Positions 20,814 through 23,252 of a stretch of DNA of 32,670 nt are shown here, piece by piece (within the stretch, counting starts at the first letter, position 1; every line of letters begins with the position of its first letter). Origin of the DNA: Desulfomonilaceae bacterium (lineage in GTDB: Bacteria; Desulfobacterota; Desulfomonilia; Desulfomonilales; Desulfomonilaceae); contig JAVHLK010000049.1 of the NCBI GenBank assembly GCA_031082285.1, positions 3,820 to 36,489 on the forward strand. The letters are read 5' to 3'. The position numbers and the translations under genes are program-made. A model generated the notes under the pieces. It saw nothing but the letters and a program-made list of their open reading frames with translations. It ran no database searches and was not told the DNA's origin.

Positions 20814-21170
20814 TCACGCGATCCTGTTGATCTGGTTGGCGTCGTCAACGAAAACGTTGATTGCCATGTGGATCCCGCAATCCGCGTCATCCACGCCGAC
20901 GTACGAGCAAATGATCACCAAATCCTTGACGGCGACCATCCTTGCCGCTGCTCCGTTGAGGCACACCACGCCCGAGCCGGGTTCGCCCTTTATCACGTAC
21001 GTGGTGAACCGTGCACCGTTGTTGATATTGTAAACGTCAACCTGCTCGTATTCTATGAGATTCGCCGCTTCCAGAAGACTTGCGTCGACGGTGATGCTGC
21101 CTTCGTAGTCGAGGCAGGCTTCGGTCACTTTGACTCTGTGGATCTTGGATTTGAGCATCGTTCGAATCAT
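20814..21170 (-). CDS. panD: Aspartate 1-decarboxylase
   Basis: 118 aa. Pyruvoyl enzyme making beta-alanine from L-aspartate for pantothenate and coenzyme A. The N terminus MIRTMLKSKIHR matches the Escherichia coli enzyme and places the self-cleavage site at Gly24-Ser25 in DYEGSITVD, where Ser25 becomes the pyruvoyl group. NNGARFTTYVI and LNGAAAR are the conserved active-site segments. The ATG at 21170 has GGAGGA five bases upstream; a longer upstream reading has no family similarity. It follows panC by 40 bp in the same operon. Confidence 0.96.
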   Translation of the reverse strand: MIRTMLKSKIHRVKVTEACLDYEGSITVDASLLEAANLIEYEQVDVYNINNGARFTTYVIKGEPGSGVVCLNGAAARMVAVKDLVIICSYVGVDDADCGIHMAINVFVDDANQINRIA

Positions 21171-21210
21171 GTACGTCCTCCGGTAGGAGAAAATTGTCCC
21201 AAGGGATTTC

Positions 21211-22056
21211 CTATTCGTGCAGGAGCATGTTGTCGATAAGCCGCGTGCTCCCGATTCGTACGGCCAGTATAGCCAGGGCCTTGTCGCCCACTTCCGCCAG
21301 ATCTTCGAGGGTATCGGGGTGCACGATGCTGATGTAGTCCACTTCGGTGTCAGGCTCCGCATTCACTCGTGTTCGCATGGCCGCAAGGTAATGCTCTGCA
21401 TTGTTCGCGCCGTTCTTGAAAAAGCCTTTGGCTTCCATCAGCGCCTCGTACAGGCAGACTGCCTGCCGTCTCCGATCCGGCGACAGATACGCGTTGCGTG
21501 AACTCATGGCGAGGCCGTCGTCTTCCCGGATCGTGTCACATTCCACGATCCGTACATCGAGGTTCAAATCGCGAGCCATGGTCTTGATAACCTGGACCTG
21601 TTGATAGTCTTTTCCGCCAAAATACGCGTCGGTGGGTTGCACCATGTTGAAGAGCTTCAGCACCACTGTAGCCACCCCCCGGAAGTGCCCGGGTCTCGAT
21701 GCTCCGCATAACGGAGCGGAAACTCTTTCCACCGTGACGTATGTCTGAAACTGGGGGCCGTAGACTTCTCCCGGTTCGGGAACGAACAGGATGTCGACAC
21801 CCGCTGATCGGCACTTCTCAGCATCTCCCTCCGGGTCTCTCGGGTATTTGTCCAAGTCCTCGTTGGGGCCGAACTGAGTCGGATTGACGAAGATGGTGGC
21901 AACCAGCACGTCGTTCTCGGACCGACCTCTCCTCATGAGGCTCAAGTGTCCCTCGTGCAGGTATCCCATCGTGGGAACGAGGCCTATGCTCCTCCCTTCC
22001 TGCCGGTGGGGTCGCAGGCGATCTCTGAGGTCGTGTACTGTGGTCAGGATGTCCAT
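21211..22056 (-). CDS. panC: Pantothenate synthetase
   Basis: 281 aa from ATG 22056 (MDILTTVHDLRD); a GTG at 22065 would add three residues. It condenses pantoate and beta-alanine with ATP to form pantothenate. Class I nucleotidyl-transferase motifs are clear: LVPTMGYLHEGHLSLM (the HIGH-type motif) near residue 27 and MSSRNAYLS (KMSKS-like) near residue 180. FVNPTQFGPNEDLDKYPR and YFGGKDYQQVQVI are family signatures. It is upstream of panD, so the two enzymes that make and use beta-alanine are co-transcribed. The 5' region holds a promoter, a terminator hairpin and another hairpin. Confidence 0.97.
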   Translation of the reverse strand: MDILTTVHDLRDRLRPHRQEGRSIGLVPTMGYLHEGHLSLMRRGRSENDVLVATIFVNPTQFGPNEDLDKYPRDPEGDAEKCRSAGVDILFVPEPGEVYGPQFQTYVTVERVSAPLCGASRPGHFRGVATVVLKLFNMVQPTDAYFGGKDYQQVQVIKTMARDLNLDVRIVECDTIREDDGLAMSSRNAYLSPDRRRQAVCLYEALMEAKGFFKNGANNAEHYLAAMRTRVNAEPDTEVDYISIVHPDTLEDLAEVGDKALAILAVRIGSTRLIDNMLLHE

Positions 22057-22084
22057 TGGTTGCACATTCCCGTACGGAAGGGCC

Positions 22085-22123
22085 GACCTTTGCGCGTGCC
22101 GTGCGGGGCCGACGGCAAAGGTC
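22085..22123 (-). promoter_or_regulatory. Inverted repeat directly upstream of panC
   Basis: GACCTTTGC and GCAAAGGTC (22085-22093 and 22115-22123) pair over 9 bp with GC-rich inner sequence that can pair further. The base of the stem lies about 29 nt before the panC ATG, in the same leader as the terminator at 22196-22228. It could influence panC translation. Confidence 0.4.
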
Positions 22124-22195
22124 CTACGGAATCATGGTTACGCCGGTTTTTGGGTGTTTGGCGATTATTTTGCCAACCGCCGAGTCGTGTCGGCC

Positions 22196-22228
22196 AAAAA
22201 CAAAAAACGCCTTCCGGCGGGAAGGCGT
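22196..22228 (-). terminator. Intrinsic terminator in the panCD leader
   Basis: On the minus strand ACGCCTTCC-CGCC-GGAAGGCGT (22228-22207) is a perfect 9-bp stem with a tetraloop, followed by TTTTTTGTTTTT. It is a textbook rho-independent terminator. It lies about 140 nt upstream of panC and about 105 nt downstream of a strong promoter, so it ends either a small RNA or an attenuated pan transcript. Confidence 0.88.
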
Positions 22229-22335
22229 ACGATGCTTCTTTCTTATCCTTCCGTCCCGGTCGTTCGGATCCAGGCGGTATGTGACTCAGAAATGCCTCTC
22301 TGAGTGTTCCGGGTTCGTGAGAACTCCAGACACTA
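22196..22335 (-). ncRNA. Candidate small RNA or attenuator leader upstream of panC
   Basis: A transcript starting near 22335 (from the promoter at 22342-22369) and ending at the terminator would be about 140 nt with no protein ORF of note. Visible structure includes a 7-bp stem ACTCAGA/TCTGAGT with an 8-nt loop, flanked by CCCGG and CCGGG that can close a multibranch domain, then a purine-rich single-stranded stretch (GGACGGAAGGATAAGAAAG) before the terminator. It fits none of the riboswitch consensus sequences I know, nor SRP RNA. Either a metabolite-sensing leader for panCD or an independent sRNA. Confidence 0.45.
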
Positions 22336-22341
22336 TATGTC

Positions 22342-22369
22342 ACTATAGCGATATTGAGGGAATCGTCAA
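22342..22369 (-). promoter_or_regulatory. Promoter of the panC leader/sRNA
   Basis: On the minus strand TTGACG (22369-22364), a 16-bp spacer and TATAGT (22347-22342): five of six matches in each box. It points toward panC. Its start site would be near 22335. Confidence 0.6.
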
Positions 22370-22515: not shown

Positions 22516-22974
22516 TCACGATGGCTGCGTGATGTCCAGCCACAAGGCCGCTGGGACGAAGCGCGACAAATGGCCAACATTCGTAGTAGCGATGACAACG
22601 TTCGCGACGTCGAGCGTCCTAGCTTGCGCTGCAAGAATCACATCTCCATCAAGAGCCTTGTCATCCGCTGTTGGCTCACCCTGCTGACGAGCCTGCGCCC
22701 AAAGGGCAGCTGCCATCCGCATTGCGGCCGTTGTGAGGGGGAGATACTCCAAGTGACCAACGAGATCATCGAGGCGCCTCAACCCTTTTACCTTGTTGGC
22801 TCGCAGTAGTTCACGGCGCACTTCGTAATCCGAGATTTCGGGTACGATGGTGCGGGCACCGTGGGTCACCAGAGCTTGCAGCCATTTCGCACATGCGACA
22901 CTTGCCGGTGAACGCCTCGGATTGGTCACGAGACCGAGTGGTCCCGCATCGAGCATTACGATGAGGCTCACCAC
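22516..22974 (-). CDS. PIN-domain toxin, VapC-type
   Basis: 152 aa from GTG 22974. PIN-domain proteins are Mg2+-dependent ribonucleases; as VapC toxins they cleave tRNA or rRNA when not bound by antitoxin. Acidic positions fit the fold: Asp9 in VMLDAGPLG, Glu46 in IVPEISDYEVRREL, Asp109/Asp111 in ALDGDVILAAQA. The fourth position is Asn132 in ATTNVGHLSRF, as in many active members. The start overlaps the antitoxin stop by seven bases (GTGGTGA), typical of a two-gene toxin-antitoxin operon. It is bordered by inverted repeats, suggesting the module was gained. Confidence 0.88.
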   Translation of the reverse strand: MVSLIVMLDAGPLGLVTNPRRSPASVACAKWLQALVTHGARTIVPEISDYEVRRELLRANKVKGLRRLDDLVGHLEYLPLTTAAMRMAAALWAQARQQGEPTADDKALDGDVILAAQARTLDVANVVIATTNVGHLSRFVPAALWLDITQPS

Positions 22975-23252
22975 GTCACACCCTGCAGCTCTGGGGTGAA
23001 GAGCCGGCGATTCGATAACCGGTGGTCGTCAAGTGCCTGAATGAGATACTCCCCAGTATCCTGCTGGTCTTGAGAGTCTGTTTCATCAAGCCACGACTGT
23101 AACAAATTTACCACTTCGGTGGTTCTATGCTTTGGCGGCACACACTGCTCCAGAACTCGTACAGTATACGCGTCAACAGGAACGCCGTGGCGCGTGGCCT
23201 CCTCAGTCAGACGTTTCTCAAGGTCCGGTGGCAAGTGAAGCGTGAGTGTCAC
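22968..23252 (-). CDS. VapB-like antitoxin
   Basis: 94 aa from GTG 23252, which follows GGAGA by about six bases. It opens MTLTLHLPPDLEKRLTEEA, a ribbon-helix-helix style DNA-binding N terminus (a strand, then two helices to about residue 40). A C-terminal tail (about 50-94) probably wraps the PIN toxin. RHH antitoxins repress their own operon by binding a palindrome at the promoter; candidates such as TTCCT/AGGAA lie just upstream but no operator is certain. It is translationally coupled to the toxin gene. Confidence 0.83.
   Translation of the reverse strand: MTLTLHLPPDLEKRLTEEATRHGVPVDAYTVRVLEQCVPPKHRTTEVVNLLQSWLDETDSQDQQDTGEYLIQALDDHRLSNRRLFTPELQGVTW

Follow-up and report, generated by a model that had tools for sequence, protein, structure and literature searches.

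The analysed stretch of DNA, 32,670 nt in length and referred to here as the window, carries on its reverse strand a promoter, a structured RNA leader and an intrinsic terminator ahead of the pantothenate genes panC and panD. The coordinates given for this leader in an earlier note, made from the letters alone, proved correct, and the features are listed below in the order of transcription.

22342..22369, reverse strand: sigma-70-type promoter (-35 TTGACG, 16-nt spacer, -10 TATAGT), conserved in the leaders of the taxonomic family
22304..22333, reverse strand: pan hairpin 1, with GUGU/ACAC, a bulged A, CUGG/CCGG, a bulged A and GUUC/GAAC (RF01749 alignment)
22278..22303, reverse strand: variable linker containing a hairpin specific to the window's sequence (folding and family alignment)
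22251..22277, reverse strand: pan hairpin 2, with basal helix CCG/CGG, a bulged A, CCUGG/CCGGG, a bulged A and UC/GA (RF01749 alignment)
22247..22252, reverse strand: GGAAGG, the motif's 3' strand and the putative antiterminator strand, overlapping the base of hairpin 2
22220..22225, reverse strand: CCUUCC, 5' arm of the terminator, able to pair with 22247-22252
22207..22228, reverse strand: intrinsic terminator hairpin, with a T run from 22206 downwards and a counterpart in 84 of 89 loci of the phylum
22066..22206, reverse strand: additional spacer separating the terminator from panC, with a 9-bp hairpin (22085-22123), missing ahead of panC in the other 17 leaders of the family
21211..22065, reverse strand: panC, pantoate--beta-alanine ligase, starting at GTG 22065 (ATG 22056 also possible; TIGR00018, 332 bits)
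20814..21170, reverse strand: panD, aspartate 1-decarboxylase (TIGR00223, 140 bits)

Both gene matches, TIGR00018 for panC and TIGR00223 for panD, exceed their cut-offs, the latter beginning at residue 65 of a 182-aa open reading frame (20814-21362). The near-consensus promoter TTGACG-16-TATAGT seen by the earlier note was confirmed at 22369-22342 (-) with 10 of 12 matches, and it recurs among relatives: across 20 family leaders the best promoter score was at least 10 in 15 and at least 9 in 18, with a mean of 9.8 against 7.3 for shuffles, and the -10 box lies 8-13 nt upstream of hairpin 1. The terminator was likewise borne out (22228-22207, nine pairs, followed by TTTTTGTTTT), and the leader folds at -51.8 kcal/mol, compared with -37.2 ± 3.7 kcal/mol for shuffled sequences (z -3.9; 0/200). 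The 7-bp stem described in the same note exists as a linker hairpin at about 22303-22283, but it falls where the family alignment has its variable linker and is not conserved. A closing helix CCCGG/CCGGG, which had been thought possible, was rejected, as both strands already pair inside their own, separate hairpins and the pairing of hairpin 1 is kept through two-sided changes.

The 140 nt between terminator and panC, including the 9-bp hairpin (22085-22093 pairing with 22115-22123), are present as described. The distance from the motif to the panC start is 182 nt in the window as against 47-59 nt in the family's other panC leaders, 17 in number, the spacer behind the terminator being about 130 nt longer in the window than in those leaders. 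This 140-nt spacer with its hairpin occurs as a single copy in the genome and was therefore rejected as a dispersed repeat; a weak additional promoter could conceivably lie inside it.

An Rfam scan of the whole window returned a sole match above cut-off, the pan motif (RF01749) at 22247-22333 (-), which covers the full model (1-92) and scores 37.2 bits against a gathering cut-off of 36.2. The supposition that the leader matches no known class was thus wrong, the RNA family having been published in 2010, and a new RNA class is rejected. The margin over the cut-off is only 1 bit, other members of the taxonomic family reaching 48.2 bits, and the narrow score is backed by the matches in relatives. 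Cis90_sRNA and BsrG also gave weaker matches in the region, far under their cut-offs and on the opposite strand, and were discarded.

The published description of the pan motif gives hairpins in tandem, each carrying two bulged A, ahead of panC-panD, and counts delta-proteobacteria among its occurrences (Weinberg et al., 2010, PMC2864571). Set against that description, the window's element is itself no different, its lineage having formerly been filed under delta-proteobacteria. The model alignment and the 20-leader alignment both display tandem stems with two bulged A each, the bulged A columns being invariant or almost so; panC and panD follow downstream; and an intrinsic terminator stands between leader and gene, with an exclusive alternative pairing indicated by covariation and folding. 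In Bacillus methanolicus, the pan-panB-panC-panD arrangement listed in PMC4342826 places the same RNA family ahead of the same pathway, differing in gene order (panBCD there, panCD in the window), and the motif is listed there merely as cis-regulatory. The window's element is therefore a further copy of a described family and in itself ordinary. The passages on the pan motif consulted in PMC2864571 make no mention of a terminator or an antiterminator.

Conservation ahead of panC elsewhere, on which the earlier interpretation had hinged, was upheld by covariance searches, which matched all 17 other genomes of the family and none of 24 from a second family of the class. Among 60 near genomes, the window's own included, 24 gave a match at E 0.1 or better and nine exceeded the RF01749 cut-off, and in a draw of 395 genomes across the phylum 69 gave a match at E 0.01, 31 of them over the cut-off. 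The phylum counts that follow refer to 89 loci, comprising the matches from the near-genome search and from the 395-genome draw; a further 117 stretches found by a pattern scan served solely for gene context and names and were excluded from all counts because the pattern itself fixes the tail, and about 10 of them, having no pan gene or terminator, look like chance. In a pattern search of the family's panB loci, the motif was found in 2 of 15, which makes panC the usual target in this family.

A panB or panC start lies downstream within 1500 nt in 87 of the 89 loci and within 500 nt in 86, the first pan gene being panB in 53 and panC in 34 of the 87. A terminator occurs in the 150 nt after the motif in 84 of 89 loci, and in 83 it stands upstream of the first pan gene; at a score of at least 18 the scan detects these 84 and 0 of 89 shuffled stretches, although without a score threshold 16 of 89 shuffles are picked up as well. 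The scan gave no terminator in five of the 89 loci, one of which, L204, could not be parsed as a pan motif. Most genes begin within a few tens of nucleotides of the terminator, leaving no room for a separate promoter.

Covariation supports the individual hairpins. In the family alignment (20 leaders from 18 genomes, two genomes contributing two each) both hairpin cores are nearly invariant, and 95.1% of the cells assigned to the hairpins and terminator are paired, with nine pairs showing two-sided changes, seven in hairpin 1 and two in the terminator; none of 500 shuffles reached as high, and sliding the partners by one column lowers pairing to at most 58%. Hairpin 2 varies too little inside the family for a covariation test, and its base was therefore followed across the phylum, where all three basal pairs are kept in 86 of 88 parsed loci (89 in total), as CCG/CGG in 75, UCG/CGA in 4, CUG/CAG in 2, UGG/CCA in 2, CUG/CGG in 2 and UCG/CGG in 1.

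The central observation concerns the tail of the motif. This conserved 3' tail, GACGGAAGG (CGGAAGG), is complementary to the 5' arm of the terminator, which typically reads GCCUUCC, GCCUUCUG or GCCUUUCG. In a permutation test each family contributed a single locus (n=28) and terminator arms were dealt out among families, which are not independent of one another; the true tail:arm duplexes averaged -11.75 kcal/mol compared with -10.11 ± 0.41 kcal/mol for permuted ones (0/5000), and the result persisted among tails differing from GACGGAAGG, again one per family (n=20; -11.26 vs -9.32 ± 0.49; 0/10000). In 22 of 28 cases the arm pairs better with the tail than with any upstream 12-mer of the leader. 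Run length in place of energy gives a weaker result (7/5000 permutations), and a 17-nt instead of a 12-nt tail weakens the test to 12/3000 in the window's phylum and 3/3000 in Firmicutes.

Concerted changes illustrate the same relationship: family f39 combines a UGG/CCA base with CCAGAA:UUCUGG, f32 a UCG/CGA base with CGAAAGG:CCUUUCG, and f18 a CUG/CAG base with CAGAGGG:CCUUCUG. The antiterminator columns hardly vary within the window's own family, and the family alignment is uninformative for this pairing. At the foot of hairpin 2, at least two of the three closing nucleotides are also engaged by the longest unbroken tail:arm pairing in 83 of 84 loci, so that the two folds, sharing these bases, are mutually exclusive; the run is shorter than five pairs in 7 of 84 loci. 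Folding of the window's RNA agrees with such an exchange: cut before the 3' arm of the terminator and folded without constraint, the RNA adopts the antiterminator form, hairpin 2 being open at its base (-38.8), and at full length the terminator form reaches -52.6 against -45.4 with the antiterminator forced, an advantage of about 7 kcal/mol.

Beyond the window's phylum, pan motif matches were obtained in 124 of 299 genomes of Firmicutes, the phylum of Desulfosporosinus, and in 23 of 251 genomes of Chloroflexota, the phylum of Dehalococcoidia; the loci analysed in these two sets may include several per family. A laboratory strain of Bacillus subtilis also carries the RNA family. Among the best 30 Firmicutes loci a pan gene lies within 1500 nt in 29 and a terminator follows in 28, and the tail:arm pairing of these 28 is stronger than chance (-9.84 vs -8.17 ± 0.37; 0/2000). 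Of the 23 Chloroflexota matches, 18 have a pan gene and 18 a terminator, and the pairing there is not significant (97/2000, with 162/3000 and 193/3000 in further permutation runs). The sequence comparisons thus support a putative antiterminator in two of the three phyla, the window's own and Firmicutes.

Some of these loci show other arrangements. At L128/L228 (Chloroflexota) the tail GGAGGG lies 2 nt upstream of the panB ATG and the terminator scan is negative; control at the level of translation may apply at this locus. The first gene after the motif at L253 encodes a Rossmann protein of about 290 aa (PF10727/PF10728, DUF2520), and a similar first gene was recognised by eye at L257, L258, L268, L271, L279, L231, L236, L244, L090 and L189; this protein, found in other lineages, is a candidate ketopantoate reductase. 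In addition, pan motifs at L123, L060, L136, L235 and L238 precede genes other than panBCD, namely those for a PanS-like transporter, BioY-family proteins and S58 peptidases, one of each having been tested and L136 and L238 assigned by eye; the PanS-like transporter match (296 bits) is below its cut-off of 400.

The window's leader is probably a transcription attenuator of panC-panD built on the pan motif (RF01749) and switched through its tail. The earlier note had left the choice between an attenuator and a small RNA open; synteny, terminators and covariation favour an attenuator of pantothenate genes, and the stand-alone small RNA is disfavoured because nearly all relatives' genes start right after the terminator. 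We infer the direction and signal of the switch, together with mutual exclusion of its two folds in the cell, as follows. Transcription would start near hairpin 1 and proceed through the tandem pair of hairpins, with their two bulged A residues apiece, to the terminator. As long as the terminator's 3' arm has not been made, the tail CGGAAGG could detach from the base of hairpin 2 and capture CCUUCC, the 5' arm, forming an antiterminator and allowing panC to be read. A factor reporting sufficient pantothenate or CoA would bind and lock the hairpins, keeping the base of hairpin 2 closed; the tail would then be too short for the arm, the terminator would form and panCD would be off. Folded hairpin 2 should accordingly favour termination, and opened hairpin 2 read-through.

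The predicted binding factor would most likely be an RNA-binding protein acting as a dimer, which the authors of the original description also suggested (PMC2864571), a partner favoured by the small symmetrical motif and its tandem copies. In PyrR-type attenuation, a protein that binds a hairpin in the leader of a biosynthetic operon tips the balance from antiterminator to terminator. The pan leader would work alike if the proposal is right, with a different RNA motif and operon, and with a putative partner where PyrR-type attenuation has its protein. CsrA-type dimers recognise GGA motifs, and such a dimer was set aside as partner since the GG is paired in the pan leader.

Direct binding of pantothenate, pantoate, beta-alanine, CoA or a precursor by the tandem hairpins, with the same terminator switch, is an unlikely reading to which several observations nevertheless lend some weight: the terminator-linked leader precedes pathway genes in three phyla, and first genes elsewhere include the PanS-like transporter (under its cut-off), a BioY/ECF transporter protein and an S58 peptidase. 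Against such a riboswitch, the conserved core is small, consisting of two hairpins with two bulged A each and no junction or pseudoknot seen, and reviews of 2022 list CoA among the ligands for which no riboswitch is known (PMC10043782, PMC9971707). The fuller claim, that the pan motif is the natural RNA sensor of the CoA pathway, its hairpins binding pantothenate, CoA or a precursor and feeding the conserved switch strand into the terminator, appears more doubtful still; direct metabolite binding, if true, would make the pan motif the long-missing CoA-pathway riboswitch.

The notion that the terminated RNA of 135-140 nt is an independent small RNA, with panC served by its own promoter in the 140-nt spacer, is very unlikely. 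It draws on the unusual length of that spacer and on a weak promoter-like site at 22193-22164 (9/12), yet chance alone predicts 0.8 ± 1.0 such sites for the region scanned, the 47-59 nt between motif and panC in the other family leaders offer no promoter room, and conservation is tied to the pan genes. Slimmer again is the chance that the tail serves mainly as a ribosome-binding site or other means of translation control, its match to the terminator arm being a side effect. The one Chloroflexota locus (L128/L228) with GGAGGG just before panB and no terminator by scan fits this idea, but the window's tail lies 182 nt from panC, a terminator follows the motif in 84 of 89 loci, and tails unlike a Shine-Dalgarno sequence (CCAGAAA, CUCAACA) nevertheless fit the arm of the terminator in their own leader.

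With the tail-switched attenuator as the preferred reading, the orphan pan family would gain a concrete, testable switch, in which the conserved tail, both in Firmicutes and in the window's phylum, serves as antiterminator strand. The RNA family was already known; the new part is the probable tail/terminator switch mechanism, no description of the tail-terminator pairing having been found in the literature searched, to which this statement is limited. The proposed switch sets an expected direction (locked motif, genes off) and names the bases to mutate, and a simple termination assay could thus serve the hunt for the binding partner of the pan motif.

Two further features of the locus and its genome deserve mention. 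No match to panB (PF02548) was obtained in the window's assembly, rated 99.9% complete, in which panC and panD are present; panB was found in 15 of 18 family genomes, G002 and G016 also being without a match, and its absence from the window's assembly may reflect either an assembly gap or another route to pantoate. Upstream of the leader, 22516-23252 (-) holds two overlapping small open reading frames, the downstream one encoding a PIN domain protein (PF01850, 24.3 bits), and this pair is probably a toxin-antitoxin pair.
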